Below, piece by piece: positions 11,312 to 38,765 of a stretch of 64,000 nt of DNA. The notes under the pieces are model-generated. The model had not been told where the DNA came from. It did not search any database and saw only the letters and a list, made by a program, of their open reading frames with translations. Position 1 is the first letter of the stretch. Each line of letters begins with the position of its first letter. Source of the stretch: a virus; IMG/VR virus record IMGVR_UViG_3300034112_000721, positions 1 to 64,000 of that record; one strand, 5' to 3'. The translations under genes were made by a program, and so were the position numbers.

Positions 11312-11325
11312 TCTTCCCTTTTTTT
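11297..11325. terminator. Bidirectional terminator between convergent gene blocks
   Basis: A perfect 10-bp stem pairs AAAGGGAAGA (11297-11306) with TCTTCCCTTT (11312-11321) around the loop AATAA. On the + strand it runs into TTTT. On the - strand the same stem is followed by a T-rich stretch (TTCTTATT), so it can stop transcription from both sides. It overlaps the stop codon of the last + strand gene and ends at the stop of the last - strand gene, marking the boundary between early and virion modules. Confidence 0.88.
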
Positions 11326-14300
11326 ATCTAAAGAAACTTGATTCAAATGCTTTTACAGCCTGATCAGGATTGAGTGTGTTACCCGTTACACCCATTAATT
11401 TTAAGAAATAAGCCCAAGTTTTGCTATCACCTTTTTCCCAGGGACCAGTTTTTCTTTTATAATAATTTGCTTCATCATCAAAAACACCAACAACAAATTG
11501 TTTTATAAAACTAATAAACCTATCAATACTATTTGTTGCTGCTGACGGAGATTTAACAATCCTCCACAAGTCAGGCCAGCCAACTACAGGCAAATAAGCT
11601 GCAGTCTCACTTCTCATTCTCAAGGCTTGATATAACATATAATTATAACCCATAGATTTTTTAAGATCATCATCATCTCCTGCCATAGCATGTAATGCTG
11701 CAACAAGTGCATATAGTGCAAGTACAAAACTTACTTCATAAAGAGTTCTTTTGATCTGTGCTTTTTCAAATGAAGTATATCCACTCCAGTTTTTAATGAC
11801 ATTAAATTTAAAATCTCTGAGATCTCTAATAAATGTTTTCCAAAAAGTCACATAGTAACCCTCTGTTGGTGAACCAAGTTCAACATCCATACCTGCTCTC
11901 TTAAACCTTTTTTTGTATGACGGAATAAGATATTTTCTATACATTAATGCAAGTCTGCCTAGAGTGTATCTTTGAGCTACTGACTGATCAAAACTATTAT
12001 AAACACCATGCATTCTTTTGTTTAATGCATGCAATCTATTTTGTAAATCTAGCTTTTGTTTTTTAGTGTAACTTGTTTTATTATAGACATCTTCCATACC
12101 ATACTTTTTGTATGCCTGATATAATGTCATTTCTTTACCTGTTGCATTATCAGTTACCTTCTCTCTATCCATTAGCGCAAACATCATAGCTGTTTGAATT
12201 TCATATTCCCCAGCATGCATGTTTACAAACAGAGTATTAGTTCTGAAAAGCTTATTTGCTAATGAACCAGTTATTGTTTGACCATACATATCTTTAAACT
12301 CTCCTTGTAAAGGATCAAACTCTTCTATTATTTGTCCTTCTAGAGTTACTGCAACACCTTTTCCAAAGTCCTTAAGAAAATTACCTCCAATTAAATATAA
12401 ATTTGCTGCAGCTTTACCTTTTGCATAATTTTTAAAATCTATGAATTCTGCAGAAGCAGCCTCAAGAATAACTTGAATATTTGCTTGTAAGTTATTTGCT
12501 ACACCCTTCATAAGATCAGCAGCCAGAGTTGTTAATGCTGAGTAAGACATGATTGTATCAGAGATTTTTGAAATATTATATCCAAATAAAGTTTCTTTCT
12601 TTCTCATCTCACCATACACAATCATATCTATAAAAGCATCTAGATGTAACTCAGAATATGGTGTACCATTTAAATTTATATAGCTTTCATAACCAAGTTT
12701 TTTTGCGACACTATCTAATATAGGTTTTCCTTCAGATGTTGTAGCTCTTATTTTTCTACCACCTATTATACTTTTAAGTAACTTAGTCTCTGAGTGAATA
12801 CCATTAAGTGCCTCAAAATTATTTACAGACTGACTAAATAATAAAACAGATCTTAATAAGTTAAGACTTGTTTCAGATGCGTCCATTGGTTCAATGTATC
12901 TAATTGGTATAAGTTTAACAGCACCCTCTCCAGAAAGTGTTGATGTCATAAACTCATAGTCATTTGCAGTAAATTGAAAAGCCTCTTTAAATTCTGTCTT
13001 ACCAGCTTTAATAATATTATCAATCATCCTCTCACCTTTTGTCTTTAAAACTGAAGGCAAGAAGTATCCTATCCTAGAAAACTCTGGTATTTTATCCTGC
13101 TGGCTAAAATATACATCAGTTAAAGCTTTGTGGTACTTACCTTTTGCGTTTTTGGGAACACCATTTTCATCATACAATGCAGACCATTTTCTAGATATAT
13201 ACTTATTAGATGGAGTTGATAGTTCTCTCATATATACTAAAGAACCATCAAGTTTTTCATATACAACAGATTTTACCCATTTATTATATTCATCTTCTGT
13301 AATTATCTTTCTCTTAAGCTGATTCTTCTTATAAGCAACTATTTCTTTTCTTTCTTCCTCTGAAATAGGTTGAGTATTTTCACTGTACCAATCTCTTTCA
13401 GCTGCAAGATATGCGGCCATGTCTTCACTCCCTCTTTGGGGTCTTTTACCAAGTTTTTTATAAAACTCTATTCTATCATTCTCAAACTTAACAATATCAT
13501 ATTTCTGAACAAATGCTGCTCTATCCATGAATATAACATTTCCACTTTCATCTTTCTTTACATTTCCATCTGCATCTCTAAGTGGAACTCTTAGTATTTC
13601 ATATAAACCCTCATTAAATTTTTTAGGATTATCTCTTGAACCAGGAGCAACCCTTTGATACTCATTAAATGCTTTTTGCAGTTCTCTTTGTATCTTAATA
13701 TCTTTCATTCTAGCATCTTCAAGCTCTGTCTTAACAGCTCTAGCAAATAAAGCTATTACACTGTCATTAGAACTTATAAGTGGAGTAAAGAGATAATCAA
13801 TCAATGATTCATCTCTTACTGCTTCTTTAAGAAATTTAATAAGATTAGCTTTATCTAGAGTAAAATTTTGCCACTCATTAATTTGATCCTGTAACTCTTT
13901 AGTTCTTTTAGCAATAAACTCAGGTTTATTTTTTGGATTATTCTTTACATCTTCTATTCTCTGCTTATATTTTTCAATTTGCTCAGAGATTTTTTCTTCT
14001 ATTGATGCAGGAGCATAATCTAAAAGAAAGTCTGCCATTAACTCAATACCCTGATTATTTACTTGTGATTTAATTCTATTTCTAGTATTTATTGCAAATG
14101 TCAATTTATCCTGGGCAGTTAATTGATCAGATGACTTTTTCATTATTTCCTCTACAGAACCTGAAAAATAATTATCTATATCTGATGCATCTATATCATC
14201 TAATATATTATAGTTATTTGCATATTCTAGTAATGCAACAAGTGAATCTATAGCTTCTTTTCTATTTATTCTATTATTCTGAATTCTTTTTAATACTTTA

Positions 14301-14695
14301 CCCATTAATTCATAGGCTTGATTTGCCTGATTATATGCGTACTCAACAAATGCATTTATAGATTCTAGATTCTCTAGTTCTGACATATTTTTTTGAAGCT
14401 TTTTAAGCTCATCAATTTTTTCAGACTTTAGAGTTGTTTCTGTTCTTTGCAGTATCTCAATTTTATTTTGAAGATATATTCTTAGTCTTTGTACTAAGTC
14501 TGAGAATGAGTCTGTTTTTTCTTCTGGCTCAAACTCTTCTTGTGCCATTTCTATATCATCAGTTTGTGGCTCTGATCCACCATCACCTTCTTGGTCATAC
14601 TCTGTTGTCCAGATTCTCATGGCCTCTTCTTCATTGCCATTAGCTCTGTTCATTGCATCTTTCCACTCTTTGCTATTTTTATTAGGACACGACAT
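11324..14695 (-). CDS. Large virion-associated protein, 1123 aa (last gene of the polymerase cluster)
   Basis: A protein of 1123 residues from ATG 14695. This ATG overlaps the stop of the giant polymerase gene as TAATG, the same coupling seen elsewhere in this block, and is preferable to the in-frame GTG at 14701. It opens with CPNKNSKEWKDAM, then an acidic linker, then a long helical region with probable coiled coils (residues ~75-300). The C-terminal third contains a hydrophobic helix (YEVSFVLALYALVAALHAM), which may be membrane-seeking or a buried core helix. No catalytic motif is recognised. As the last gene after the virion RNA polymerase, it is likely a virion cargo or injected protein. 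That is inference from context. Confidence 0.7.
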   Translation of the reverse strand: MSCPNKNSKEWKDAMNRANGNEEEAMRIWTTEYDQEGDGGSEPQTDDIEMAQEEFEPEEKTDSFSDLVQRLRIYLQNKIEILQRTETTLKSEKIDELKKLQKNMSELENLESINAFVEYAYNQANQAYELMGKVLKRIQNNRINRKEAIDSLVALLEYANNYNILDDIDASDIDNYFSGSVEEIMKKSSDQLTAQDKLTFAINTRNRIKSQVNNQGIELMADFLLDYAPASIEEKISEQIEKYKQRIEDVKNNPKNKPEFIAKRTKELQDQINEWQNFTLDKANLIKFLKEAVRDESLIDYLFTPLISSNDSVIALFARAVKTELEDARMKDIKIQRELQKAFNEYQRVAPGSRDNPKKFNEGLYEILRVPLRDADGNVKKDESGNVIFMDRAAFVQKYDIVKFENDRIEFYKKLGKRPQRGSEDMAAYLAAERDWYSENTQPISEEERKEIVAYKKNQLKRKIITEDEYNKWVKSVVYEKLDGSLVYMRELSTPSNKYISRKWSALYDENGVPKNAKGKYHKALTDVYFSQQDKIPEFSRIGYFLPSVLKTKGERMIDNIIKAGKTEFKEAFQFTANDYEFMTSTLSGEGAVKLIPIRYIEPMDASETSLNLLRSVLLFSQSVNNFEALNGIHSETKLLKSIIGGRKIRATTSEGKPILDSVAKKLGYESYINLNGTPYSELHLDAFIDMIVYGEMRKKETLFGYNISKISDTIMSYSALTTLAADLMKGVANNLQANIQVILEAASAEFIDFKNYAKGKAAANLYLIGGNFLKDFGKGVAVTLEGQIIEEFDPLQGEFKDMYGQTITGSLANKLFRTNTLFVNMHAGEYEIQTAMMFALMDREKVTDNATGKEMTLYQAYKKYGMEDVYNKTSYTKKQKLDLQNRLHALNKRMHGVYNSFDQSVAQRYTLGRLALMYRKYLIPSYKKRFKRAGMDVELGSPTEGYYVTFWKTFIRDLRDFKFNVIKNWSGYTSFEKAQIKRTLYEVSFVLALYALVAALHAMAGDDDDLKKSMGYNYMLYQALRMRSETAAYLPVVGWPDLWRIVKSPSAATNSIDRFISFIKQFVVGVFDDEANYYKRKTGPWEKGDSKTWAYFLKLMGVTGNTLNPDQAVKAFESSFFR

Positions 14696-17600
14696 TAGCA
14701 CAAATTTTTATTAATTATAATTCTAAGTTCATTTAGTTCCTCTTCACTATTTACATTCTCTGCACGATCTATTATATCATTTACATCTATACCTTTATTG
14801 GCTAGTACTAGATCTATTCTGTATTCTTTGATTTGACTGTTCAAAGTATTAATGAATTTTGTAATACTATCTTTTCCAACAGGTGTTTGTGGTAATATAT
14901 CAGAAACAATATTTCCAGTTGTAAGATCTATGTTACGAAGATATATACTACCTGTGTCAATATCAACTAGATTGTATAAATTATTCTCAGATAGAACATA
15001 TTTGTTAGTGCCTTCACTACTTTCATAGATGAATTCTTTTGGATAAACTCCATTTGTTCTTGCTAGTTCTTCATTGAATAGTCCTATGACAGGGTTATTT
15101 TCCGGGCTTAATCTCTGTTGTACAGTGGTCATTTGCTGGATCTTTCCTGCAGGTGTAATTCCAAAGACATACCTTGTAGCATCACCCTTTATAAAGTTCT
15201 GCATGAACCTATTGTTGTTTGTGTAGTCACTCCAGTTTTTAAATCCTTCTGCTTTAGCAAAGCTGTCCTTACTTCTTACAAAAGATTTGTTTGTCTTTTC
15301 GTTTGTGATTACTACCGAATTACCAACTACCCGTGCAATACCATAATATTTTATTTTTACTTGTTGTGTATCACCAGCAAGATATGTATCATCTGCAATA
15401 AGTTCTGTTCTAGTAGTAATTACTTTACTACCATCTAGTACTTTAGCGATGTTTGTATTTGATAGTGGTAACTGAGCTGTTGTTTTAGAAGCTACTGTTC
15501 CAGGTTCTTGTATTGTTTCAGCTTTTGTTTCTATTTGAATAGTAGGTTGAGTAGACAATATAGACTCTAATAATTTAAATTGTTCTTCTGATAATATATT
15601 TTTTAAATAATATCCAGCTTTTGGTGTTGCCATATAAAGTTCAGTAAGAACAGGTATAATCTCATCTTTATTACCTTTAGCTAATTCTCTTTTTAGATAA
15701 TTTCCACTATCTATACCGTAATATTCATTCTCATCTCTAGCAACTTCATCAAAAGCTTTTATTATTAACTCTACTTGCTTATCTGATAGATCAATGCCAG
15801 GATTATCAAAACTGTGAGCAGCTTCGTGTATTAATAAAGATTCTAATTTAAAATCTCTATATTTTTCGTCATTAAAAAATATTACATTAGTATTAGCAGG
15901 TAATCCTTTATACTCTAAAAAAGCATCTATATATTTTCTATACTTTGGATTTATTTGAAATCCATGTAAAATTGATTCTGGATTAAAAGGATTTTGACCT
16001 GAAGCTTTTCTTATTGATCTATAAAATTCTGAAAGATTATCAATATACTCCTTGGATCCCTCAACTCCACCTTTTCTATTATATATAGTATCTTGTAATA
16101 CCATATCATAAACTACAGAACCAAAAGAAGCAATAGCAGAAATATTTGCTTTATTAAATAGATCTTTATTTCTATCTATTATTCCTAAAATTGGTGTAGA
16201 GTTACCATATTTATCTAACAAAACTTTAATTTCTCCTACTGGTTGTACTGTAGGTTGAGTAGATATGGGTTCTGAAAATTTAAAGTCATAAGTAGAAGTT
16301 GTGTTTTCTAAAAATTCCCCTACTTTCAAGGGATTTTTTTGAATTGATTTTATTACTTTTCCATTTTCTATTATAACATTTATCACAGTACCGCCATCAT
16401 AACCTTTAATATTTAGAGTGACATTATAACCATTTTCTGTTTTTTCTATTTTTCTTATAGTACCTGTATTGGTTACTGTCTTATATTTTAATTTAGATGT
16501 CCGTGTAATGATGTCCCCTACTTTATTTAGTAATTGATTTTCAGACAGTCCAGGTGCTTGAGTAGGTTTAATGACTTCAAATTCTATTGCTGCAGCACCG
16601 TCTTTAAATCTATCTATTACATTTACATCTTCCGCTCTCCAACCTTCTTTATTCCAAGTTCCTTTAAATCCAGGTGTTCCTTTAGGATGAATAGCAGTTA
16701 CTCTAGCTAAAATATTTTTAGTTGTACCATCTGCTGATTTACCAAAGTGTTTGATTATATCTCCAACTTTAACAGCATACTTAGACATTTCACTTTCACT
16801 TCTTGTAGTTCTGGTTCTAAACCCAGCCTCTATCATATCTATAGAATGTGGATTTGCCCCAAGTGCTTTAATTACTTCAGAATTTGCAGTAACTGTAGAA
16901 CCAAAGGATTCTATTCCAGATACTTTGTTTTGTGGTATATCAGCTACAGTAGCTTGGGTAGGTTGTTGAAACTCTTCATCTTCAAAAGTTATTTCTGTTT
17001 CTTCTGCAGGCAATACTTTTGGTATATACTGAGAATACTCAGTATCTGTTACTGTAAAATCTATAAACCTTCTATTATTTGGATCTGTTATTTTATCTAA
17101 TACAAAATCATATGTTTTATTATTGTCATAGTTGTTCTTAAATAAATCTCCCGCAGCTTTCATTATCTTTAGATAATCATCCTGTGGAAGAACATTATCA
17201 AAACCATTAAGTGTTTTACCTACACCATGCTGATAAATCATTAATAGTGGGAACAACTTGAATATTCTACTGAGTCTCTCATTCTCTTCAGGACTTGTTT
17301 CAGTATTTTTTACTTTCTGAATCTTTGCATTGCCCAGTTGTTTTAATTCTGAAGCATAAAGAGTTGCTGTGTTACCATCTATTACATCTCTGTTAGTTAG
17401 AGTAAGAATGCTTTTATTTGCACCAGCTTCTACATATTTTCTTATCTGATCTATTATAGAGAATTGTCTTGACAATGTTGATCTGTGTTTGTCAATAGTT
17501 CTCATTACTAGGTCACTATAAGAATACTTCCCGGGATTTATAATTACACCAGGATTAAATGTATTAATTAAAGCAAACTGATTTAACTCATCACCTCTAA

Positions 17601-20600
17601 GACCTTTCTGAAATAGATTTTCTCTTTCAAGTACATATCTAATGTAACTTTCCTCTGTAGGAAATAGATCATTTTCATTTGAAGGAAATGCTTCTAAACC
17701 TTGTCTTTCTGTATAGCTTTCCGCACTTGTACTTGTATCCAAATATCTTTTATTAGTATAGTCCTCTCTTATTCTATTTTGATTAATTAAGAAAACACCA
17801 TCTTTTATAGTTACATCTGTGTCAATAGAATTATCTATTTTAACTTCTTGTTGTCTATACTTGTTTGGTATCATTACAAACTTACCATCCTCAAATACTG
17901 TATTAGACAAATAGTTTTGAAATACAAATGTTTTTAAACCTGATTTAAAATCTCTATTGAATCTAGTAAGACCTTCTTGTGTTGCTTTATATTTTTTTGA
18001 GTCAACTATTTTTTCAAGTTTGCTATTACCTTCATAGCCACCCATGGCATCCAACAAGAATCTATTTACTTTAGGTCCATTGATTAAATCCATCATTGGC
18101 ATAAAGATTTTCTCAATAATATCCTTATCACCAAATGATGCAATAATACTTTCTTCTAAAACACCCTTTGCAGTTTCTAAGTCAATCTTAGAGTTATCAA
18201 ATGCTAAATCAACATCTAACTCTCTTTTAATTGCTTCCTGTGGAGTCCTAAGATTTCTAACATCTGGTTTAGATAGATTCTTTAATGCATTTATACCCCT
18301 TAACTGGTTTTCTATTTCTACATAGTGAGCTAACATTGCAAGAGATTTTGTCAATTGTTCTGGAGATAGCTCACCCTTTTTCTGAATCATCTCAAACATA
18401 CTATTCTTGTCAAAACTTCCACGTCTTAAGACACCAGGTATATTTGATAAGAATGATGATACAGCATATACATTTTTATTTGAGGGTATGAAGTTTCTAT
18501 AAATTACTTGTGCTACTCCTTCTGCTTTAACTAAATTAAGATTTGGAGCTAATGTTGGTAATTGATTTATAAAATTACCTTTTGTAATTTTTTCAGAAAC
18601 TTTTTCTGGTGCATCTGTAACAGGATTCTTTCTAAAATATTCTATAGTAAGTTCAGTACTATCAGAAAGTGATTTAATTCTGTCTAATATAAATCTCTCT
18701 TTATATTTATCAAATACTTGTTTTGCAGATTCATATTTAAGAGCAGGAGCTAGTTCTGGTGCTACACCAGAAGCTCTTCCAAAAACTCCACCTTTGAGTC
18801 TTTGATTTTCTGTATACTCTCTAATTAATGGATTAGATATAAAATAAACTGCATCTTCAGGACTAACCCCAGCTTCAGTGAGATATAAAAACACAGGAAG
18901 TGCTTGAACATTACCCTGAATATAGAATATCCAAGGATTGGTTTCAACATCCACAGTACCATTTAAAGCTTGTGAAAATATCTCAGCTATTTTATAAATA
19001 TTATCATTAGTGTAAATATTTGACAAAGAGATATGTCCATCTATTTCATTATGTGGCAAAAATAATCTTACATCAAATACTGCCTTACTTTTCTTACTCT
19101 CTACATACCTTCCATATTTCTTTTTATATTCTGCCGGTTTATATTTCTTAGGCATCTTAGCCCCTATAGAAGTATATAATGGATTTAATGCATTTTGATT
19201 TGCTACAATACCAAGTCCCCGCTTACCTTCCAAGTTTTGAGCATGCTTTTCTACATTTGTTAAAGGCTCAAATATTGATGTTGGAGATGCATACTTAGTA
19301 CCCTTTTTAGAAACATTTGGTTTCTCATCATTTACTTTAGCATACTTATCTCTTGTACTTACAAGATCTTGTAATTTAATTGCAATGTCTTCTAGGATTG
19401 ATGTGTCATTAGGAGTTACTAGTGAGGCATAGTTTTCTTCTATCTCTAATATACTTTTGATAGTTTCAATAAACTCATTCTCTGCTGCTTTCTTTTGCGT
19501 ACTAATAACATCCTTTGGATTTTTTTCCTGGTTCTCTAATGCACTTACTTCTTTAAAGAAATTTTGATTAGAGATACTTGATCTAACATAACTACCATCT
19601 TTATTTATATTTGGAAAGAATGTAGTTAACTTATCAACGTCAAAGTCAGATCCTGATTTTGCAACTATTTCTGTTGGTGGAATAATCATGTTTACTGCAG
19701 AAGGATCTAAGAATTCATAGACTTCCATAAATTCCATAGAGTTTAGACCTTGTACTGGTATTCTTACTGCAGTTAATGTAACAGACTTTCTATTGTCAGC
19801 AATATCTAACCAAGCATCTTCCTTAATCATTGCATTTAACCTATCAATAGTCTTGATTGGTTGACCATCTAAATGTTGAAGATTTAATAAATTAAAGAAA
19901 TCACCTTGTAATGTAATGGCAACTTTCATTGATAATGTCTTACCATCTTTACCTTTAGTATAGAAAGGTAAACCATTAGTTCCCAAATATTTCTTGCGTG
20001 CAGCTTCAAGTTCCTCTTTAGACAAGTTTGCAAACTTGTTTCCCTGAGTAACATCCCAGGTTCCATTCCACATACTATTTGCTACCTGTACAAGTGCATC
20101 ACCGTTTACTTTTTGCCTAACAAGTCTTTTCTCAATAAGAGACATTACTATATTCTCTATAGTTTCTGTATCTAAGAAATATGATAGATCATACTGCAAT
20201 GTTCCATCAGAATTAGTTTTGAGTTGATCTATTAAATGTTGAGGATAGTCTTTGGCTTTTAAGTTAGTTTGAATTAGTTTTAAAAATTTAGAAGGGTTAC
20301 CAATATAAGTTCCAGATTCATCTTTTCTGTATCCTATTTCATTCTCTAATTCTTTTCTTACTAATTCATTATAGAAATTAACTAGTGATTCATATTTATT
20401 ACCAAGTTCTTTTGCTTTATCAGATACATACTGACCATTTTCCTTTAATCCTTCTAATATTAATTTTCTTAACTGTGTTGAGAATATTACTTTACCCTTA
20501 GATTTAGATGGTACAGATGTTGCTTCTTTAATAAATGCTGCATTTATTCTGTTATTTGTAAAAGTCACACTTTCTTTTAGTGCTTTTCCTCCATCTTCAA

Positions 20601-23600
20601 ATACTTGATCAGGTTTTCCATTAGATGTTACTCCAGATATTTTAGAACCAGATGCAAATGTTACATACTGAATGTTTTGTTCTAACATCTTTTTGTGTAA
20701 TTCTTCCAACTGTGTTCCTTTAACAGCAGATGGAATTAATGGCATTAATGCAAACTTATGCATTGCTTGTACTGGCAGTATTGTATCTTCTACCCAACCA
20801 AAGTTTTGTAACTTAAGAACCGGGAAACCTTCTATATAATCTGTTAATGGTATTTCTTCTTTATTAATGATTCTTTGATAAAGTTTCTCCTGTGAAGTTG
20901 ACCACTTGTTCATTAACTTTTTGATTGCTCTATAAGAATCAATAGTTATATAACCTTGTCCATCACCTTCTTTTATGTCAGATTTACTATATTTTTTAAC
21001 TGCTCTTTCTACAGCAAGTTCTATTTCTCTATCTGATAGTTTAGAGTTTCTACGTTTAAAATCTGCAATTAAACCTTTTTTAATTTCAGACATAAAAATA
21101 CTATCCCTACTTATATCTTCTATGATAGCTGTATTAATATACCCATCATACTTAAACTTATCATATGCCTCTCCAAGAGATTTTGCATATGTATTTGAAT
21201 TAAATCCACCTTCAGAACTATTGCTTATAAATAGTTGAGCATAAATATCAGTTCTAATTCTTGGACCGTTTGAAATTAATCCAGAAAGTCTTTTGAATGC
21301 TGCATCTTTAGAATGATCAAGTTGAGCTATATCTCCTGTAAAAAACAATATACTTGTTTCTACATTATGTATCCAGGAATTATAAAAGAAAGCTTTTGCT
21401 AAAACTTGTTTTCTTTGCTCATCTGAAAGTTCAATATTACCAAATCTATTTATCAGCTTAAAGTCAATGAACTCAGTTTTCTTAATCTCATCTAATAACT
21501 CTACTGATTTTTTATCAAAGTAATTTGCTATTTCATTTACAATCTTATTGTATAAATCAGGATCTGTTTTTAAATAATCAAGAAGATCTGTGCTAGGGCT
21601 ATTTACTTTTTCTAGTATTTCTTTTTTAGTTCCCGAATTTAAAATACCATCAAAATAATTATATACTTCACCAGATAGCTGACCACTATCATTTACAGGT
21701 TGATTATAACCAACATAATTTTTAGCTTCAGGATTTGATTTAAATACATTAATTCTATTTGTTTCTGAAGCTAAATAAGGTAATATTATTTCTTCTATAA
21801 TTTCTCTTTCTGTTCCTGTTTGTGGTATGAAAGAATTAATATCAGCATATAAAAATGGTTCAGACTTCTGACCTATTGCTTGTCTAGATACAAATCCTCC
21901 TTCAAATAACCATCCCCAAGCAGAAGATTTAGAACCTGGTCTCATAATTTCTTGATGACCAGCTTTTAACATTGTATGAAACTCTTGTAATAACTTACCT
22001 TGTTGGCTTAGTGATGTTGTGTTTTGTCCACCATCAGTAGCTTCATTATTTGTTTCTTGTGTTCCAGACTGTTGGAAATATTTAATTGATCTATTGCTCT
22101 TTTTATTATCATTTGCATCAAATAAATTTCTTAATACAAATGAGCTTTTAGCCATTGGATTTTTTCTTGGATCAAGAAATCTTAAAACACTACCTTCTCT
22201 GTACATATCAGTCTTTTTCTCAACTGTATTAAGAGCATCTATCAATACTGTAAATGTGTTATCAGTAGTGTGTTCATTTATTCTATTTCTCTCAGCATTA
22301 GTAGAACTAAAAGAAGTAGTTGCTGATCCATATCTTACTTGAAGTTCAGCAATTCTTTCTATCTGTGTCTTTTGCTTAGAGCCATTTTTAAAAACTCTTG
22401 AGTCAGCTTCACCAATAAGATTTTTATCAATACCATTGATTAATACTCCTATAGGATTTAATTTTAAATCACGTAATAAATTATCTTGTGCTTCAGTTCT
22501 TTTTTCTAAACTATCTGTAAATTGAGCAGCTTTTAAAGTATCATAGATGTATGGTAAACCATATACCCTTGATAGTTTATTTGCATTAGTAATTTCAGAG
22601 TTTATTCTTTCATTGTTATCTAGTGTGATACCTAATACTTTTAAAAACTCACTTGCTTTTCTAACATCAAAATTTCTATTTGAGTCAGCAAAGTCACTAA
22701 CTATTTTCTTTAGATTTAGATATACATTATTATTATTATCTGTAAATACATACTTACTTTCCTTGTTAGACTTGTAATCATATTGGAATTGTTTTATAAC
22801 TGTTTTTACATCTAATGAGCCTGGAGTAACTTCAGTACTTATGCCACCCTCAGTTTTAAATAAGGACAGCTGCATGTAAGGAACTCTTGGTAAACTAAAT
22901 ACAGACCAGAATGAAGTTATGTTGTCAAACTCATAACTATTATTTTTTGAATCCGGTTTTGGTAATTTAAATTCTACAAGCTGTTTAAGTTCAGGAAATC
23001 TGTTAGATGCCTCAACAATTTTATTATATATGACCTCTGGATCTTTAGTACTCTCAGTTATTCTTACTAGATTATTCCAAACTTTTTTAAAGTCTACTAG
23101 TTTTTTAAATCCAAGATTGTCTTTTTCAGTCACATAATTATCACCTTGTTTTGTTACTTTATGTAAGCTCCTAAGAATATAAATTACATCCTTACCACCC
23201 AACTCAAAGAGTGATTCTTTACCAATGTCTTTACCTATTTTTTCAGATTTAGTAACATCTGTAGTTGCATCATCTTCTACAAGATCTATAGTGCTAGAAA
23301 TAATTTCAAAGCTACTGTTTTTTTCATGGTACTTAATTACTGAATCCCAGTTCTTAACTGCCGTTTGTAATACTCTTAAGTTATCTAGGAGCTTTCCTTG
23401 CAATCTACCTATATTAGCTACTGATTCTGCAGTAACTAATGGATTTAATTCAAATGAAGTAAATGTATCCTCTCCTGCAGCTACATAACTATCGTATTGT
23501 TCCTTACCTTCACTTATATCATTTACAACAATAATTGTAGCATTACCTTTAGTAGAATCTTTTATAGACTTATGTGTGTAAAAATCACCTACAATTTCTA

Positions 23601-26600
23601 CTTGGTCTTTATATAATTCTCCTTTAACTCTTTGATCTCCTTCAGTTGCAAGATCTAAGTTATTATAATCTTCTATCTGTGTTGCTAGAAAAATATATTT
23701 ATGGTCTCCATTTTTTGACCTAATAATTGCAGAAGCATTATCTTCTAAATCCTTTATTGTACTAAATGAAGTAAATGGTTTTTCTGGTGCTATCTTAAGT
23801 CTTGATTTTATTTCATCAATTTTTTCTATAAACTTAAGTCTAGCAATTTGATAAGCTACTTTTCTATTATTTAAATCAGTAATAATCTTTGTAGTACCAG
23901 CTTTATTATCCTTTCCACTTGATTTCTCTCTTTGATACTGCTCATCTATTATATCAGAGATAACAGAGTCTATTGACTCTACTACATCATTTGTATCTTT
24001 CTGATTTAATGCAATTTCATTTTTATTCTCTGTCTGTGTAATTCCCCTATTAAGAATATCAAACATTACATTATCAATACTAGGTGTGTAGATGTTTAAT
24101 AACTCGGGATTATTACTTGCAAGATACAAGTTTTTAAAAAGCTCACCTGCTACTCCTTCTGACTCAACATCATACTGTTGTAAGTTATCAGATATACTTG
24201 TTGTTTTACCAAACAACTTTCTTAAGAAGTTAAGTATTCTTCTAAATAAAGAATTTCTTTTAGGAGAACTTGGCTTTGTTTTTTGATTTAGTGCATATGA
24301 TCTAAAATCTTCTGCAAGAATTTCTTCTAATTGCAAGAAAGAATAATTCTTATACTTTGGATTACTCTTTCTTAGTTCTTCATACAAAGCTATTTTTTCT
24401 TCTCTAGTTAAAAACAACTGAGAGAAGGCATGCCAAGCTTCATGATAAGCATCAACTACTGAACCTCCTGTAGCTTCATTAATTTGTATTGCACCCAGTG
24501 CTCCAGTATATTGTCCAGCAATTAATGTTGATCCAGCCGTAACAAATCTTGCATAAGCATCAGAGTTTACTATATTAATCATCTGTAACTCACCAAGATA
24601 TTTCTTTAGTGGTGATTTATCATACCAACTGATAGCATTACTAATTTGTTCAGCTGTTACTCCTTCTGGTAAGCTTGTTTTTCTATCTAATTTAAACTGA
24701 TTAAAAAGATTAGATATTTCAGAATCATCTGATGGATTTCTAACATTCTTAGGATTTAAAGCTTCTGATTGTTGTGTATCTGATTCTTCTTCTGAAACAG
24801 TCTTTGGTGCTTCTGTAACCTCATCTAATTCTTCTATTTCTTCTTGTTCTGCAACATATTCTTCTTGCATTGGAACAGCTGGTCTAGAAGTTTCTTTACC
24901 AAAATCTGTTTCTTGAAGATTTCCATATTTTATTATATTATTTCCTTCTATTTTAATTGCAGAAATATTATTTGGATATCCAAAGCCATTTTCTATTTCA
25001 ATAGGATCTATAATAAGTTCTAATGTTTCACCTATCTGAGGCTGATTTAGAGACTTCATTAGCTTGTGCTCTCCTTGTTGACCTTCAATTTCTACAGTTA
25101 TATATGTAGAAAATGTCCCTGTCTTAGGATCACCCTCTGTAGTATATTCTTTTACAGTAGCTAATACTTTTTGATCTGGTGAGTTTTTTATTACCTCAAC
25201 TAAGTTATCCTTAAACTTTCTTATTTCAGATCTATCATCTTTTTCTACAGTTTCTTTTGCTTCATTTACTTGATCTACAAAAGTATCATCAAGAGTAAAA
25301 TTAATACTAGAATTATATAATGGAATTATTTTACCATCTTTTACTTTTATTCTTGCATTTTGTTCTTGTAAAAAATCTGAATAGCTTCTCAATACAAATT
25401 GACCATCTTGATAATCTAAATATTCCTCACCAACTAATCTTGGTCTATACACAATTTTAGAACTAAAAGGCTCTCCATTTTTACCGGTGGCACCTTTCAT
25501 AAAAATATCATAGATATCTTTTTCAGCAGTACTAGATTTAAGGTCTATAGTTTTTGGTTCCTTATTTTGTGCTGCTTTACTTGCATCTGCTTTTGCTTCA
25601 TTTAATGTAAATGGTGCATATGAAAAAATAAGTTCTCCATCTACAAGATTTAAATTATGTCTTTGGAAGCTTGCTGGAATAGAAATTTTTTGATCAGTAA
25701 AAAACTGATGATAAAATCTAATCTTTTGTTCATTTGATATATTGGGGTTTGTTAATACAGCGGCAACCTTTCTTGCTGTATCTTCATTTATATTTGCTCT
25801 ATCTACCTCATATATCTCATTATTAATTGTTACATATGACCCACCACTAGGAATGTTTTCAAACTTAATGGGTGTTACATTTAAACTATTAATAATTGCT
25901 TTTCTTTGCTCTTCAGTAAAGTAGCTTGATAGATTGTTAATCTTTATATTGTTAAGTATTTTAAAACTAAATACTCCGCGTGTTGCTCCAGTAATAGTTA
26001 ACAGTTTTGTTTTCTTAGTACTAATTAACTCTTGTCTAAAGTCATAAAGTTTTTTAAACTCTTCTTGTTGTTGTTTTTCAACTTCTTTAACATACTCTGC
26101 AAAAGACATTCCTTTTGCATTTTCTAAATTTTCTTTAGACCCATATAACAAAGAAATTTCATCATTTACAATATCCTCTGGAGAAATTATCTGATCTTCT
26201 ATACCATAAATATCAGTAACTCTATACTTACCATTCTCTAGCCTTACATCTCTTAGCATCTGATAGACTATTCTACCACCCTCATCTTTTGTACTTACTC
26301 TTCCATCTTTTGTAAAATAAACAAAGGCTCCAGATGCATCAGATAGAACTAAAGCAAATTGTTCTGAAACTGGTGTTACTTTACTTTCACCACCTTGATT
26401 AATTATTGCATTTTGTTTTGCTATTATTGCATTTGAATAATTTGTTCTATCATTTGATGAAAGTCTATCTAAAGGAATAACTTTTAGTTTTAAATTTACT
26501 CCATCAATACTTGCATTATCTAATAAGTCTATATCAGCTGTATTAATACTTAATCTTGACACAGTATTAATAGCAGTTATTTTATCAGAATCTGTTACTT

Positions 26601-27126
26601 CAAATTCTTCAATTTTAGTTTTTGGATCCTTAGCTAAAAACTGTTCATCAGTTCCAGAGTTTACATTTCTAGATTTTAATCTCTTATCAGTTGGACTAGT
26701 TAACTCTTGTACTGGTTTTGATTCAGTATATTGATCTACCGGTTTATTAGCATTATCTTCAGCAATTAGAGCTAATTGTTTAGGGGATAATGTTTTTTCA
26801 AAGTATCCATAGACCATTTGAATTCCACTATCTTGATTTCTAAATGCCCTAGATAATGGTAGTATATTTATCTCATTACCAGTATTATCTTTTGAAAGCT
26901 CTATGTCTTTCCTAGTTGCTACCAGATTTATTATATATGGTACTTGTTGCATATATTGAATAGCACTATCAACACCTTGTCTACTTTTAAGGTTACTGTA
27001 TAATCTATTCATAAAATCATTAATGTCAAATGACTCACCTTTAGCTTGTGAGTTTAACATTGCTTTACTTATAACTCTTGTAAGAGCTTCAATATGTTCT
27101 GATCCTAATGCACAAGTAATAGCCAT
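14695..27126 (-). CDS. Giant virion RNA polymerase (crAss-like, DxDxD active site) with extra domains
   Basis: A 4143-residue protein. The polymerase core is placed around residues 2100-2600. A region with HKFALMPLIPSAVKGT and ASGSK (about 2120-2165) is followed by R2455-I-P and then D2494-F-D2496-V-D2498 (19633-19647). This layout mirrors the RxP...DFDGD double-psi beta-barrel of cellular RNA polymerase beta' and the DxDxD motif of YonO/crAss-like virion polymerases. Other segments include an HEAWH motif (H895-E896...H899) and a second HExxH (H3767-E3768...H3771). Two ASCH-like segments lie near 3420-3500 and 3885-3990, each with a TTR motif. Family knowledge suggests it is packaged, injected and transcribes early genes. 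It ends in a short tail resembling that of the neighbouring 2870-aa protein. Confidence 0.85.
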   Translation of the reverse strand: MAITCALGSEHIEALTRVISKAMLNSQAKGESFDINDFMNRLYSNLKSRQGVDSAIQYMQQVPYIINLVATRKDIELSKDNTGNEINILPLSRAFRNQDSGIQMVYGYFEKTLSPKQLALIAEDNANKPVDQYTESKPVQELTSPTDKRLKSRNVNSGTDEQFLAKDPKTKIEEFEVTDSDKITAINTVSRLSINTADIDLLDNASIDGVNLKLKVIPLDRLSSNDRTNYSNAIIAKQNAIINQGGESKVTPVSEQFALVLSDASGAFVYFTKDGRVSTKDEGGRIVYQMLRDVRLENGKYRVTDIYGIEDQIISPEDIVNDEISLLYGSKENLENAKGMSFAEYVKEVEKQQQEEFKKLYDFRQELISTKKTKLLTITGATRGVFSFKILNNIKINNLSSYFTEEQRKAIINSLNVTPIKFENIPSGGSYVTINNEIYEVDRANINEDTARKVAAVLTNPNISNEQKIRFYHQFFTDQKISIPASFQRHNLNLVDGELIFSYAPFTLNEAKADASKAAQNKEPKTIDLKSSTAEKDIYDIFMKGATGKNGEPFSSKIVYRPRLVGEEYLDYQDGQFVLRSYSDFLQEQNARIKVKDGKIIPLYNSSINFTLDDTFVDQVNEAKETVEKDDRSEIRKFKDNLVEVIKNSPDQKVLATVKEYTTEGDPKTGTFSTYITVEIEGQQGEHKLMKSLNQPQIGETLELIIDPIEIENGFGYPNNISAIKIEGNNIIKYGNLQETDFGKETSRPAVPMQEEYVAEQEEIEELDEVTEAPKTVSEEESDTQQSEALNPKNVRNPSDDSEISNLFNQFKLDRKTSLPEGVTAEQISNAISWYDKSPLKKYLGELQMINIVNSDAYARFVTAGSTLIAGQYTGALGAIQINEATGGSVVDAYHEAWHAFSQLFLTREEKIALYEELRKSNPKYKNYSFLQLEEILAEDFRSYALNQKTKPSSPKRNSLFRRILNFLRKLFGKTTSISDNLQQYDVESEGVAGELFKNLYLASNNPELLNIYTPSIDNVMFDILNRGITQTENKNEIALNQKDTNDVVESIDSVISDIIDEQYQREKSSGKDNKAGTTKIITDLNNRKVAYQIARLKFIEKIDEIKSRLKIAPEKPFTSFSTIKDLEDNASAIIRSKNGDHKYIFLATQIEDYNNLDLATEGDQRVKGELYKDQVEIVGDFYTHKSIKDSTKGNATIIVVNDISEGKEQYDSYVAAGEDTFTSFELNPLVTAESVANIGRLQGKLLDNLRVLQTAVKNWDSVIKYHEKNSSFEIISSTIDLVEDDATTDVTKSEKIGKDIGKESLFELGGKDVIYILRSLHKVTKQGDNYVTEKDNLGFKKLVDFKKVWNNLVRITESTKDPEVIYNKIVEASNRFPELKQLVEFKLPKPDSKNNSYEFDNITSFWSVFSLPRVPYMQLSLFKTEGGISTEVTPGSLDVKTVIKQFQYDYKSNKESKYVFTDNNNNVYLNLKKIVSDFADSNRNFDVRKASEFLKVLGITLDNNERINSEITNANKLSRVYGLPYIYDTLKAAQFTDSLEKRTEAQDNLLRDLKLNPIGVLINGIDKNLIGEADSRVFKNGSKQKTQIERIAELQVRYGSATTSFSSTNAERNRINEHTTDNTFTVLIDALNTVEKKTDMYREGSVLRFLDPRKNPMAKSSFVLRNLFDANDNKKSNRSIKYFQQSGTQETNNEATDGGQNTTSLSQQGKLLQEFHTMLKAGHQEIMRPGSKSSAWGWLFEGGFVSRQAIGQKSEPFLYADINSFIPQTGTEREIIEEIILPYLASETNRINVFKSNPEAKNYVGYNQPVNDSGQLSGEVYNYFDGILNSGTKKEILEKVNSPSTDLLDYLKTDPDLYNKIVNEIANYFDKKSVELLDEIKKTEFIDFKLINRFGNIELSDEQRKQVLAKAFFYNSWIHNVETSILFFTGDIAQLDHSKDAAFKRLSGLISNGPRIRTDIYAQLFISNSSEGGFNSNTYAKSLGEAYDKFKYDGYINTAIIEDISRDSIFMSEIKKGLIADFKRRNSKLSDREIELAVERAVKKYSKSDIKEGDGQGYITIDSYRAIKKLMNKWSTSQEKLYQRIINKEEIPLTDYIEGFPVLKLQNFGWVEDTILPVQAMHKFALMPLIPSAVKGTQLEELHKKMLEQNIQYVTFASGSKISGVTSNGKPDQVFEDGGKALKESVTFTNNRINAAFIKEATSVPSKSKGKVIFSTQLRKLILEGLKENGQYVSDKAKELGNKYESLVNFYNELVRKELENEIGYRKDESGTYIGNPSKFLKLIQTNLKAKDYPQHLIDQLKTNSDGTLQYDLSYFLDTETIENIVMSLIEKRLVRQKVNGDALVQVANSMWNGTWDVTQGNKFANLSKEELEAARKKYLGTNGLPFYTKGKDGKTLSMKVAITLQGDFFNLLNLQHLDGQPIKTIDRLNAMIKEDAWLDIADNRKSVTLTAVRIPVQGLNSMEFMEVYEFLDPSAVNMIIPPTEIVAKSGSDFDVDKLTTFFPNINKDGSYVRSSISNQNFFKEVSALENQEKNPKDVISTQKKAAENEFIETIKSILEIEENYASLVTPNDTSILEDIAIKLQDLVSTRDKYAKVNDEKPNVSKKGTKYASPTSIFEPLTNVEKHAQNLEGKRGLGIVANQNALNPLYTSIGAKMPKKYKPAEYKKKYGRYVESKKSKAVFDVRLFLPHNEIDGHISLSNIYTNDNIYKIAEIFSQALNGTVDVETNPWIFYIQGNVQALPVFLYLTEAGVSPEDAVYFISNPLIREYTENQRLKGGVFGRASGVAPELAPALKYESAKQVFDKYKERFILDRIKSLSDSTELTIEYFRKNPVTDAPEKVSEKITKGNFINQLPTLAPNLNLVKAEGVAQVIYRNFIPSNKNVYAVSSFLSNIPGVLRRGSFDKNSMFEMIQKKGELSPEQLTKSLAMLAHYVEIENQLRGINALKNLSKPDVRNLRTPQEAIKRELDVDLAFDNSKIDLETAKGVLEESIIASFGDKDIIEKIFMPMMDLINGPKVNRFLLDAMGGYEGNSKLEKIVDSKKYKATQEGLTRFNRDFKSGLKTFVFQNYLSNTVFEDGKFVMIPNKYRQQEVKIDNSIDTDVTIKDGVFLINQNRIREDYTNKRYLDTSTSAESYTERQGLEAFPSNENDLFPTEESYIRYVLERENLFQKGLRGDELNQFALINTFNPGVIINPGKYSYSDLVMRTIDKHRSTLSRQFSIIDQIRKYVEAGANKSILTLTNRDVIDGNTATLYASELKQLGNAKIQKVKNTETSPEENERLSRIFKLFPLLMIYQHGVGKTLNGFDNVLPQDDYLKIMKAAGDLFKNNYDNNKTYDFVLDKITDPNNRRFIDFTVTDTEYSQYIPKVLPAEETEITFEDEEFQQPTQATVADIPQNKVSGIESFGSTVTANSEVIKALGANPHSIDMIEAGFRTRTTRSESEMSKYAVKVGDIIKHFGKSADGTTKNILARVTAIHPKGTPGFKGTWNKEGWRAEDVNVIDRFKDGAAAIEFEVIKPTQAPGLSENQLLNKVGDIITRTSKLKYKTVTNTGTIRKIEKTENGYNVTLNIKGYDGGTVINVIIENGKVIKSIQKNPLKVGEFLENTTSTYDFKFSEPISTQPTVQPVGEIKVLLDKYGNSTPILGIIDRNKDLFNKANISAIASFGSVVYDMVLQDTIYNRKGGVEGSKEYIDNLSEFYRSIRKASGQNPFNPESILHGFQINPKYRKYIDAFLEYKGLPANTNVIFFNDEKYRDFKLESLLIHEAAHSFDNPGIDLSDKQVELIIKAFDEVARDENEYYGIDSGNYLKRELAKGNKDEIIPVLTELYMATPKAGYYLKNILSEEQFKLLESILSTQPTIQIETKAETIQEPGTVASKTTAQLPLSNTNIAKVLDGSKVITTRTELIADDTYLAGDTQQVKIKYYGIARVVGNSVVITNEKTNKSFVRSKDSFAKAEGFKNWSDYTNNNRFMQNFIKGDATRYVFGITPAGKIQQMTTVQQRLSPENNPVIGLFNEELARTNGVYPKEFIYESSEGTNKYVLSENNLYNLVDIDTGSIYLRNIDLTTGNIVSDILPQTPVGKDSITKFINTLNSQIKEYRIDLVLANKGIDVNDIIDRAENVNSEEELNELRIIINKNLC
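19633..19647 (-). other. Predicted RNA polymerase active-site codons (DFDVD)
   Basis: These 15 bases encode residues 2494-2498, D-F-D-V-D, preceded by KSGS. In two-barrel RNA polymerases three Asp residues in this pattern hold the catalytic magnesium. The Arg-x-Pro upstream is 39 residues away, against 35 from memory of E. coli beta'. The central Gly of the cellular DFDGD is replaced by Val; the three Asp are all present. Confidence 0.8.
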
Positions 27127-27127
27127 T

Positions 27128-30100
27128 TTAACAAATCTTTTTATTGTATAATTCTTCTTCTAGTGTATCTAAGTCTTTATCTTTTACTGCATCAATGATA
27201 TTATCAATATCTGCATTAGTTAAACTATCTGCTGCTGTAATGCTCTCAATAATTTTTGATTTAGCTTCTGGAGTAATTTCAATTTTCTCTACAGCAGACT
27301 TAGATTTTGCTTCCTCTTGTGTCATGATTTTACCGTTTAGATTATCAAATTTAACACTTTTTTTCTCATTAGAATTAGCAACTTCAAAAGTAATATTATC
27401 ACCTTCCATACTTGTTATTGTAATGAGTGAGCCAGCAGGAATATCATCTATTGGTTGTATAGTTACATACTGTGTCTCTTGTATGTCATTCATCTGATCT
27501 TTTATCTCAGATTTAAACTCTTCTGTTAAGGATTTGATTCTGCTTTTTGCAGCATCATTTATAACTTTTACTTCATAAGCTGTTAGATCCGAAACATCTT
27601 TTAACATCTCTTTGATTTCATCTACAGTAGACTTATTTATTCTCGAAATAATGTCAGCACCTTTCTCACTAATAACACTTTCCTTAACAGGTCTTTCTGC
27701 TAAACTTAGTATCTCTCCTAGTGAGATCTCTGATACAACATCACCTTTAGATTTATCTATAGTTTCATCAAGTTTGTTTTTATTTGTAGAGCTTGTATTC
27801 TTAGTATTAGTAGGTTTTGGTCCATTAGAATTCTTATCAGATAATTTATTTGCAATTGATTCTTTTGATACCTCATTAAGAATATCATTTAAGTATCTAA
27901 CCTCTTTGTTATAGCTCTTTAAACTCTCTTGTAATGAGTTAATTCTTTCTATTTCTAGCTCTTTAACTTTAGGAGTTAGTTCTGCTACATCCATAGTAGC
28001 TGAAAGTCTTGATCTCAGATTCTTAAACTGTTTTACAATAGAATTAAAATCTTCTAGTGTTGCATTCTCTAAGTTATCTACTGCTTCTTCTAATCTTTCA
28101 ACTTCTTCTTTAGAAAGTGGTTTATAATTAGCATCCGGTATTAATTGTAATTGCTGTCCTACCTGAGAGTCTAATTTTTTAATGCCATCAATATACTCTT
28201 TTAAAAGTTTTTTAGTTCTAAGTATTGTATCATTAATTGTCTTAATAGATCTATTTAAAGAATTTATTTTCTTTTTTATTTCTGCTATTTTTATTTTAAT
28301 GTCAGACCTACTAAACAATGCTAAGTCTTCTGTATCTAAAATATTTTGATAATAGTCTATTTGATCATTAAGATCCTTTACCTGTGCAGTAAGTATTTCT
28401 TTTTCTTTTCTAAGATCCTCTAATCTTCCTACTACACCTGCAATTACAACAAACTCTCTTCTAAACTGATCTCTAACATCTTGATTTTTAATAGATGTTT
28501 TTCCGCGACCTTTTCTAAATTTAGATTTAAGATACTGACCAGTTACTTGATCTAATGCAGTAATAGAGTTTATTATATCTGTAAGTTCATCTGCAGTCAA
28601 CTCAATAGATGCATTACCGATAGTATCTAAATAGTTAAGGATGTCATTGATCTTTTTTAAATCTGTATCTAATTTTTGTTGTCTACTTCTTAGAGTTTGT
28701 ATTTTATCTAGGATTGCAATTTTATTTTCTTTTGCTAACCTTCTTTGTTGTGCTGCTATATCTTCTACTTCTTGTTCAATTGTTGCTTGTTCTTCATCTA
28801 CTACTTCTTCAATAACAGGTTCTCCAGATGCTGTTCTCATTGGAATAATGTCATTGATTTTTATTTGAAGAGTTTCTCCATCTACAGTTGTTTGATTAGG
28901 ATCTACTGGAGCTACAATCTTACCAGGAACTAATATTGGACTAGCAGATTCAATTGTTTCTATTCTTCCTGTAGCTGAATCAGTTGATATCTGTAATGGT
29001 AATAAAACAGTTTTTGGATTAATACCAGTCATGTTATATAACATATTCTTAGCTGCTACAAGCTCAAGTCCATAACTTTCTTTTTTAGAGACATCACTTG
29101 TTTCATCATCATATTCTTCCCACTTATTTACATCACCCATTTTTACAAGGACAATAGTTGTATTACCCTCTCTATCTACTAGTAAGAAATTAATTTCTCC
29201 TGCAACACCTGCTGGAATATCAAATACTGTAAGCTTGGCTGGAATAATAACTATGTCACCTAAATTAGCTTTCTCTTTTAGTTCGGCCAATATAGATTTA
29301 CTACCAAATAAACTATCAAAAGCTTGTTGACTTAATAATGTAGGGTCATTTTTAACCTCTTTATCTGCTAAGAAATTTTTAATCTGATCTGTAACGTAAG
29401 TTTCAGTTTCTGCTTTTTGTTCAAACACTCTTTCATTTACTAATGATAAAACATCATTAAGTGAAATTCTTCTTTGTACTTTTTCTTCGGCTGAAACAGC
29501 TCCTTTAGATTTATCATAAAGTTCTTTACTATCCCAAATAGTTTTAGTAGCTGTATCAAAATATTGACCTAGTTGAAGTTCTTTTCCCCAAGTATCTTTT
29601 GTTCTTTGTATTTCTTGATCAATTGCTTTTAATGCATCTTTACTATAACTCTTCTTAGAACTTTCTAGAGTACTAAGTTTATCCTCAAGAGTTTGTGGTT
29701 TATACCATAAAAGATCTTGTTGTTTAAACTTATTTGCAATTTCTATAGACTTTCTTTGAGCTTGTTCTGCAGTAAGATTACTGCCTAATACAATACGTAC
29801 TCCTTTAACACCACCAAAGTTTGTATCTGATTCTTTAAGTTCATTAGCTATTTTTTTATTTTCTTCAGATAAACTATCATATGCAATTTCAATATAATCT
29901 TGTCCACCAGCTTTTCCTTGTATAGATTCTATCCAAGAACCTGTAGTTTGAATATTTTTATCCCAGAAAATTTCTGAAGCTGGAACTAATGGTCCTGCTA
30001 CAACATCTGCTATATCTTCTTTTTTAGAAATAGGTACATTAAAAGTTCGAAAACCTGTTTTAGGTCCTTCAGTACTAACTTGACTTGTAGGTTTACCTTC

Positions 30101-38700: not shown

Positions 38701-38765
38701 AGATTAAGATCAGGTTGATAGGGCTGAAGTTGTGGTATAAAAGTGGCTGATGTAAAAGTTGCCAT
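35727..38765 (-). CDS. Virion cargo/ejection-type protein, 1012 aa
   Basis: The N-terminus (FIPQLQPYQPDLNLYSNLIQ, then YDSNWKSLNRVYG, LTRDDN and DLSLQQNV) matches a pattern I associate with crAss-like cargo proteins. The middle is helical, with coiled-coil stretches around residues 255-340. Around residues 655-705 lies an Ala/Gly-rich hydrophobic stretch (WAAAGAAGGAAAGSAFFGVG and onward), like the glycine-zipper segments of phage ejection proteins that insert into membranes. No enzyme motif is seen. It is the first gene after an AT-rich promoter-like gap and runs into the 2870-aa gene with a 14-base overlap. Role as an injected or pore-forming cargo is inferred. Confidence 0.72.
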   Translation of the reverse strand: MATFTSATFIPQLQPYQPDLNLYSNLIQNKQNQYDSNWKSLNRVYGQYFYADLTRDDNIQKKDYLVDQINFNVGRLAGLDLSLQQNVSQATQVFKPFYEDKGLMKDMAWTKNFNMQVLKAQGFQGSANEKDRAMFWDTGLKELEYRRGEFKDASAEKALNFQNVLYTPYVNVQDKALELAKEFGNIESVEMSQDGRWVIKRTNGQILEEPLQHLFEANLGNDPQVQAIYSTQAYVNRKDYAYSRAGEFNGDRNAAEMDYLEKNFNTLKRSSESRYKQLNESSVAYDNKIKDLQKQIDNGNKDPQLQQQLDAYIENKSINDEVLSQSKKQLDKMNSGQSSTATTSTGFKNPYEDIETLRYMVDNGVSASLLARDLNQAAHIYAYRNSKVDMDANPYAIMADKHQYNLSEIAERHKNDLEILSIKVAAERKMMVDKENVKLGRGMFNEKGEYVPFEDQDFTFLESDSEVSTDETNQYELSNKMFRNKANQYFTPYINNVTNTLQQLIKSGQMTEKQAGQILSTPNAPVESLSDFLKKHKGNLAGFASLTGADGLEKINSNFNTFLKNNGNLSVIKNNMTALQESNLEFTDYIDYVKANTKWKKDYANVTETELARRGIADKAITQLLYDDNGNQVSAETFAANVKRTGIEIGDQRSFLEALGDAALSTGTWAAAGAAGGAAAGSAFFGVGAAPGAVFGAFTGGVAGIINSFLEGPSAEENLKALYENLVSTADKEVWSDSRLIKTPPVGYEKTTDPGTGMAAMGIRSIMVNPYSSKGRYYWNGVMSDVNKLDFSDFMGQARISVTGRSEADYENAVGGSKYKAIINEIQREMSRPSSKTDMFKLSSAVVAGGNANLGAIIIKPSAEFLKKFKSTNADDNNNLLNKTEYEDALKNGISIIANSDYLQNPLYQENFKDPLALRVDNSPNQTYTYTDPLDGRYQFEIQKNPLGMGDYSITTKYPVWDPTIGDFRIATTNDNTITAGNNLTNIRFQALQQGWPAIKKMNEQTMQYGSR

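Follow-up and report, generated by a model that had tools for sequence, protein, structure and literature searches.

Cysteine-capped ends of a crassvirus virion RNA polymerase and of its neighbours suggest a disulfide-linked cargo train

Why should a protein of 4143 amino acids (aa) hold only two cysteine (Cys) residues, one near its beginning and the other at its very end? The question is raised by an open reading frame (ORF) with an ATG start on the minus strand (14695-27126) of the window, i.e., the 64,000 bases of DNA analyzed here, which are bases 1-64000 of IMG/VR virus record IMGVR_UViG_3300034112_000721 (112,531 bases in total). The ORF encodes the predicted catalytic subunit of a virion-packaged RNA polymerase (RNAP) of crassviruses, of the phi14:2 gp66 type. 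The enzyme as such is unremarkable, belonging to a known family, and the novelty lies in its cysteine ends. The distribution of Cys in this protein and in those encoded next to it suggests that the ejected cargo is, quite probably, a head-to-tail train of proteins linked by disulfides, which is pulled along through the tail and uncoupled in the host by reduction.

The polymerase, assigned from sequence, profile and structural model, is the middle link of a chain of three proteins encoded on the minus strand, and its sole Cys are residue 5 (TGT, 27112-27114) and residue 4143, the last one (TGC, 14698-14700). The first link (27128-35740; 2870 aa), assigned by sequence and position to the place of gp67 in phi14:2 and gp47 in crAss001, has its sole Cys at the last residue, 2870 (TGT, 27131-27133). 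The last link (11324-14695; 1123 aa from the ATG at 14695, or 1125 aa from a GTG at 14701), identified by sequence and homology, has its sole Cys at residue 3 (TGT, 14687-14689). The cargo of the window amounts to 2870 + 4143 + 1123 aa = 8136 residues with four Cys altogether, arranged as (link 1 -C) (C- RNAP -C) (C- link 3), with every Cys at an end that faces the neighbouring protein. The first clue was an invariant Cys column at the extreme C-end in a conservation analysis of aligned relatives: Cys is present within the last five residues in 71/71 aligned sequences with a complete C-end (that of the window included), and makes up 0.056% of the aligned RNAP proteins overall. In an AlphaFold model of modest quality (predicted template modelling score, pTM, 0.48; predicted local distance difference test, pLDDT, 66 in the last block), the last residue directly follows the C-terminal helix.

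A scan of viral contigs yields 79 loci with relatives of this RNAP, one of which (L005) encodes a protein 100% identical to that of the window. The junction rule, suggested by the window, phi14:2 and cr108_1, was set down before the neighbouring proteins were inspected; a junction Cys was counted in residues 2-8 at the N-end and in the last ten residues at the C-end. Across the 79 loci, Cys occur on both sides at 144 of the 146 junctions between successive proteins, and the pair is found at 90/92 junctions after thinning to 50 loci by shared 5-mers. Both exceptions are gene-model matters: in L083, the ORF is called from an upstream Met, with MKVTC.. lying inside, and in L024, a frameshift places MVNC.. 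in another frame. The free N-end of the first protein contains Cys in 0/60 cases and the free C-end of the last protein in 1/68, the one being L031, a mis-cut chain in which an extra middle protein is followed by an ORF that starts MLSCPIKTS and runs off the stretch. Exactly one Cys is found in 52/60 complete first links and 63/68 complete last links, and exactly two in 52/61 complete RNAPs. Single-sequence scans for further gut loci returned 2, 1 and 0 loci.

Internal Cys number 28 in 528,010 residues (0.0053%), compared with 0.62% in 130 control ORFs from the same loci. Among these controls, which were not thinned by homology and include ORFs starting MCYTYLIKC among those with an N-end Cys, 27 have Cys in residues 2-8 and 4 in the last ten; 29 of the 54 control ORFs of at least 400 aa lack Cys, many of them probably being other cargo. 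The junction counts and the control ORFs together reject chance as the source of the terminal Cys. A nucleotide-level signal is also disfavored because both Cys codons occur at junction ends: TGT and TGC are both used at every kind of end tallied but one (five of six); the exception, which shows six TGT, is the C-terminal end of an extra link described below. Another possibility is Cys avoidance alone, whereby ejected proteins would shun Cys, as in phages N4 and T7, and the terminal Cys would be harmless leftovers. Indeed, N4 gp50, gp51 and gp52 and T7 gp15 and gp16 are devoid of Cys, T7 gp14 has a Cys at residue 2, and the lack of Cys in the virion RNAP (vRNAP) of N4-like phages is described in passages of PMC3715699 and PMC3915230. 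However, leftovers would not be expected to occupy nearly every junction but none of the free ends across three families and Flavobacterium phage Fpv3, and avoidance would leave unexplained the new pair at the extra link; this alternative is strongly disfavored and seems highly improbable.

The same layout is found in named phages. The named set consists of 20 chains from 20 genomes, 19 of them from Crassvirales and one from Fpv3, which is not placed there by its record; it takes in crAss001, DAC15, p-crAssphage and five genomes with in-frame stops in cargo genes. The junction pair is present at 25/25 junctions, and Cys occur at 0/19 free N-ends and 0/20 free C-ends. In crAss001, the gp47 gene lies on the strand opposite gp50 and gp49, and the junction pair is kept. 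The intron break in cr108_1 was not scored as a junction, and cr10_1, the third gene of which is unannotated, was excluded from this count; the cr10_1 RNAP has a Cys 11th from the end, just beyond the ten-residue limit, and the next ORF has a possible start MKIICPN...

The most informative cases are those in which the number of proteins, or the boundary between them, differs. The fusions were inferred from gene lengths and order, that of p-crAssphage gp44 being so annotated. Links 1 and 2 are found in one protein in ten chains (cr108_1, Fpv3 and eight Suoliviridae), where the N-end is without Cys and the link 3 pair is kept; in the fusions of Fpv3 and cr1_1, the first Cys appears not before residues 4286 and 4026, respectively, leaving the old boundary without one. 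Links 2 and 3 are found in one protein in four Intestiviridae (p-crAssphage, jaberico, cr3_1 and cr271_1), where the N-end pair is kept and there is no C-end Cys. Seven loci (L022, L024, L025, L026, L029, L031 and L074) have one more protein, of 242-655 aa, after the RNAP; its sole Cys are residue 3 and the last residue. The C-terminal part of this extra link matches approximately residues 4009-4143 of the window RNAP (P0001) in the six proteins compared (all except that of L026), and in L023, L028, L030 and L033, a C-terminal domain of the extra-link type is part of the RNAP.

Moreover, the boundary between links 1 and 2 is not fixed with respect to the domains. The RNAP of the window contains a zincin-type motif, HEAWH (residues 895-899; 24430-24444, minus strand), identified by sequence, alignment and hhalign, and the zincin domain has homologues in the C-terminal zincin of crAss001 gp47 (hhalign E 5.3e-14) and midway along the Suoliviridae fusions (E 5.6e-20). 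crAss001 carries the domain in its first link and the window carries it in the RNAP protein, so the protein boundary has moved across it: relative to the zincin, the boundary comes earlier in the window and later in crAss001, and both have a Cys pair there. Fusion and Cys pair are thus interchangeable, as a covalent link between consecutive ends would predict, and the fusions suggest which end meets which. H895, E896, H899, E934 and E935 are among the columns conserved in at least 97% of the relatives, and the zincin is perhaps a protease that enters the host together with the polymerase. A second HExxH, HEAAH, is found at residue 3767 (15814-15828).

The terminal Cys might instead be address tags, each binding a common partner (the portal, C1/gp45 or the capsid, by a disulfide or a metal) for loading into the virion. 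Tags of this kind could work singly, and the crAss001 cargo protein gp45 is described in PMC10172136 as binding the portal. However, such tags would give no reason for the free ends to be devoid of Cys (0/60 and 1/68, the one being the mis-cut chain; 0/19 and 0/20 in named phages), for the joint loss at fusions or for the joint gain at the extra link. Furthermore, the gp45-like proteins of the 79 loci are mostly without Cys, crAss001 gp45 having two (390 and 398). Address tags thus appear unlikely.

The mechanism that we favor is a disulfide-linked train. The terminal Cys of neighbouring cargo proteins would form disulfides in the virion, joining the proteins into one chain that runs N-to-C throughout; once the N-end of link 1 was pulled through the narrow tail, the RNAP and then link 3 would be drawn after it, partly unfolded. 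Internal Cys would be a liability, prone to cross-linking while the chain is unfolded or to oxidation in the periplasm, and hence avoided; the reducing cytoplasm would cut the bonds, so that the enzymes could refold and act separately. We infer the disulfide bond, its presence in the virion, the pairing of each C-end with the next N-end and the role in ejection. It is likely, though we hold this broader statement slightly less firmly than the linkage itself, that crassviruses inject one covalent train (here of 8136 residues, or approximately 0.9 MDa if 110 Da is taken for each residue) that is joined by terminal disulfides, passes in the N-to-C direction, is uncoupled in the cytoplasm and evolves like a polyprotein with wandering cuts bridged by Cys. 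In PMC10172136, inter-protein disulfides are reported for tail and portal-vertex proteins of crAss001, and N-to-C ejection with partial unfolding of the cargo is proposed for gp45. The mass spectrometry of the crAss001 virion described there includes a reduced and a non-reduced sample. The disulfide-linked tryptic pairs predicted for crAss001 are gp47 CNS with gp50 CITTNSTIEELAAK (M 1812.823; 2+ 907.419) and gp50 ICGANTLYEL with gp49 CAIIPQVR (M 1992.017; 2+ 997.016); for phi14:2, with the first Met kept, they are gp67 GEDSNTIC with gp66 MACK (M 1286.494) and gp66 QECK with gp65 MSCK (M 971.388).

The train could also be held together by another bond, with a metal (Zn or Fe) or thiol chemistry (thioether, ligation) joining the successive ends; indeed, what the counts show is the position of the Cys and not its chemistry. 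One Cys per end, however, supplies two ligands per junction, and the single adjoining residue that was tallied is not a fixed ligand: Cys is followed by Pro in 37/75 last links and by Ala or Ser in 43/63 RNAPs. A bond of this other type is as improbable, in our judgment, as the address tags.

Several points weigh against the disulfide-linked train. The proposal rests on Cys positions, no bond having been observed, and virions are assembled inside a host cell that is reducing and often anaerobic. The 25 of 27 Pfam families listed (E <= 1e-4) for 80 of the genome's 111 smaller ORFs include neither a thiol oxidase nor a thioredoxin. Internal Cys range from 0 to 15 per chain in the 12 named chains counted, and 7-10 residues follow some of the terminal Cys (crAss001 gp50, cr128_1, L053/L072 and cr10_1). 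The non-random residues beside the Cys may be part of ends that are kept perhaps for another reason, and pairing of RNAP with RNAP may be an alternative choice of partner. In L041, the first-link gene (L041:2797-10001) is split into 1613 + 789 aa by a frame change, without a Cys pair; L048 carries this gene whole, with 94% and 86% identity to the two L041 pieces, and the break is most simply a recent frameshift or an assembly error. Homology of link 1 to phi14:2 gp67 is not detectable (E 0.56), and the two are equivalent by position only. Finally, because of shared descent within clades, the junction counts overstate independence, the 146 junctions representing far fewer events; independent evidence for the rule comes from the few fusions, the extra link and the shift of the boundary.

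The assignment of the polymerase is consistent across methods. Searched as a whole against Pfam, PHROGs and PDB (phmmer), the RNAP has no significant match, whereas a profile of its relatives has one: built from 51 cores, this profile finds 6vr4_A, the solved structure of phi14:2 gp66, with an E value of 5e-46 (hmmsearch, three stretches). A tblastn search with residues 1900-2800 against named phages has phi14:2 g066, “Catalytic RNA polymerase subunit”, among its matches (E 9e-18). The AlphaFold model of the catalytic core, residues 1890-2810 (18697-21459, minus strand; mean pLDDT 83.7, pTM 0.79), has 6vr4_A as the top Foldseek match (E 1.4e-30), and VIA-align places residues 840-1688 of 6vr4 first (Z 22.3, 743 residues, 4.2 A root-mean-square deviation) and the RNAi polymerase QDE-1 second (Z 15.4). 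The agreement with gp66, which holds two double-psi barrels (PMC7886860), is a match of the whole core, the two barrels not being traced separately in the model. An earlier note on this DNA, made from the sequence alone, had proposed a crAss-like single-chain virion RNAP and an AlphaFold comparison with gp66, and the profile, Foldseek and VIA-align matches bear out this identity. Virion presence and transcription activity are reported in PMC7886860 for the phi14:2 RNAP, and both are predicted from relatives for the RNAP of the window. Consistent with this assignment, the genome carries Crassvirales markers, namely the Pfam families Crass_capsid (E 9.8e-31), CrAss_Ring_1 (E 5.9e-14) and CrAss_Ring_2 (E 2.8e-23), among the 25 of 27 families shown (E <= 1e-4) in the scan of the smaller ORFs. 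The gene order of 2870-4143-1123 aa fits the gp67-gp66-gp65 layout of phi14:2; link 3 is homologous to phi14:2 gp65 (E 1.1e-33) and crAss001 gp49 (E 4e-61), and link 1 to crAss001 gp47 (E 1.4e-10).

The active-site motif, DFDVD (residues 2494-2498; 19633-19647, minus strand), is preceded 39 residues earlier by RIP (residues 2455-2457; 19756-19764, minus strand), both assigned by sequence and alignment, and there is no other D-x-D-x-D anywhere in the 4143-aa protein; the ORF, the motif and the R-x-P that the earlier note had listed are all present as given. Across 74 aligned sequences, one of them from the window, the motif columns read DFDID in 39, DFDVD in 26 and DYDVD in 8 and are gapped in 1, and RIP and the three Asp are invariant in the 51 cores (alignment A1). 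Because the columns are nearly constant and RIP and the Asp invariant, the motifs are not due to chance. The motif is DFDID in phi14:2 gp66 and DFDVD in crAss001 gp50, and the Val position is occupied by Ile or Val in 73/74 aligned sequences, the remaining one being gapped there. The Gly-to-Val change, which the note had called notable, is thus the family norm and was rejected as a novelty. The size, described there as far beyond catalytic need, was likewise rejected as an argument against an RNAP, given that giant vRNAPs have been published for the family, vRNAP genes of up to ~6000 aa being mentioned in PMC10136315. In short, the virion RNAP of the note stands, its special Val does not, and the unusual feature, the cysteine-capped ends, had been missed.

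With the core, motif and gene order all as in phi14:2 and crAss001, this could be an ordinary crassvirus virion RNAP with no linkage at all, the terminal Cys serving an unrelated role, for instance in keeping the ends stable or in their turnover. Such a role, however, leaves the pairwise pattern and the absence of Cys at free and fused ends without a reason, and we consider it even less probable than the address tags or another bond.

Some further features of the polymerase and its surroundings are of note. In cr108_1 (NC_055878; L085:13343-13661), a group I intron (Rfam RF00028, E 2.2e-20) interrupts the RNAP gene within the DxDxD stretch, one ORF ending with ..AKAGSD and the following one beginning with LYDIDK... 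To residues 3401-3900 of the window RNAP few relatives align, as if this were exchangeable cargo, and G-x-K/R-x-x-T-x-R stretches at 15409-15432 and 16801-16827 look ASCH/PUA-like by eye. A Foldseek search with the last 264 residues, bearing on the idea of a C-terminal ASCH-like cargo, found no match with E <= 0.001 (1t62, which we take to be ASCH-related, E 0.10; 5y6c, an ASCH protein, E 0.50), and a profile search of the C-terminal domain found no solved structure below E 0.29. The 1012-aa protein encoded before link 1 (35727-38765) contains no Cys and occupies the place of the crAss001 cargo proteins gp45/gp46; it shows a weak match to an endolysin family (phrog_10341, E 4e-4). Thioredoxin-like genes are annotated near the transcription block in four gut crassviruses (L085, L089, L090 and L098) and could be relevant to how the chain is reduced. 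The small ORF that starts MCYTYLIKC recurs 3' of the chain (L013:26246-26875, L018:27090-27755, L038:27997-28704 and L078:10565-11272), and its Cys at residue 2 presumably resembles that of SRAP/HMCES proteins.

The cysteine-capped ends are the new element here, the identity of the RNAP and its giant size being already known. Among the titles and abstract openings listed in the literature searches, there is no prior report of terminal Cys or of linked cargo, although an earlier mention may exist, the phi14:2 structure paper and the supplements having been outside the scope of the search. In the available parts of the texts, “cysteine” is absent from PMC10172136, which has 7 mentions of “disulfide”, none of those shown being about cargo; neither word occurs in those of PMC7886860 and PMC12633501, and “disulfide” does not occur in that of PMC10136315. 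The problem addressed is how several proteins wider than the tail are fed into the cell in order. For the N4 vRNAP, how passage into the cell occurs is called unknown in PMC12633501, and for the crAss001 cargo, PMC10172136 calls for further study of ejection; crassviruses are described there as the most abundant viruses of the human gut. A reducible head-to-tail coupling, if true, would answer the questions of order, polarity and release together and would suggest a simple route for passing strings of separate proteins through narrow channels. The idea is testable on existing isolates, crAss001 and phi14:2.

Among known systems, phi14:2, which infects a marine bacterium, shares with the window a homologous core, the DxDxD motif and the gene order 067-066-065, and its gp67, gp66 and gp65 are all annotated as virion proteins from mass spectrometry. 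Its Cys are residue 1797 of 1797 in gp67, residues 3 and 2179 of 2180 in gp66 and residue 3 in gp65, with none else in 5398 residues; the difference is that gp66 is half as long (2180 aa) and that no HExxH was found in it. In crAss001, gp47, gp50 and gp49 are homologous to the links of the window cargo and have Cys at 2339 of 2341, at 5, 1334 and 2404 of 2412, and at 5, respectively, but the zincin is in gp47, not in the RNAP protein, and the gp47 gene is on the other strand. In p-crAssphage (Carjivirus communis), gp45 has Cys 1956 of 1957 and gp44 has Cys 3; this is its only junction because the RNAP is annotated as fused to a further RNAP subunit, and it differs also by several internal Cys. 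Outside the crassviruses, the vRNAP of N4 belongs to another polymerase lineage. N4 gp50 (the vRNAP), gp51 and gp52 and T7 gp15 and gp16 are, like the crassvirus cargo, large ejected proteins without internal Cys, but these five are also without end Cys; N4 gp53 and gp54 and T7 gp13 contain some Cys. Passages of PMC3715699 and PMC3915230 explain the absence of Cys from N4-like vRNAPs by passage through the tail and the periplasm. Despite the pressure against Cys proposed for those enzymes, crassviruses retain Cys where the proteins meet.

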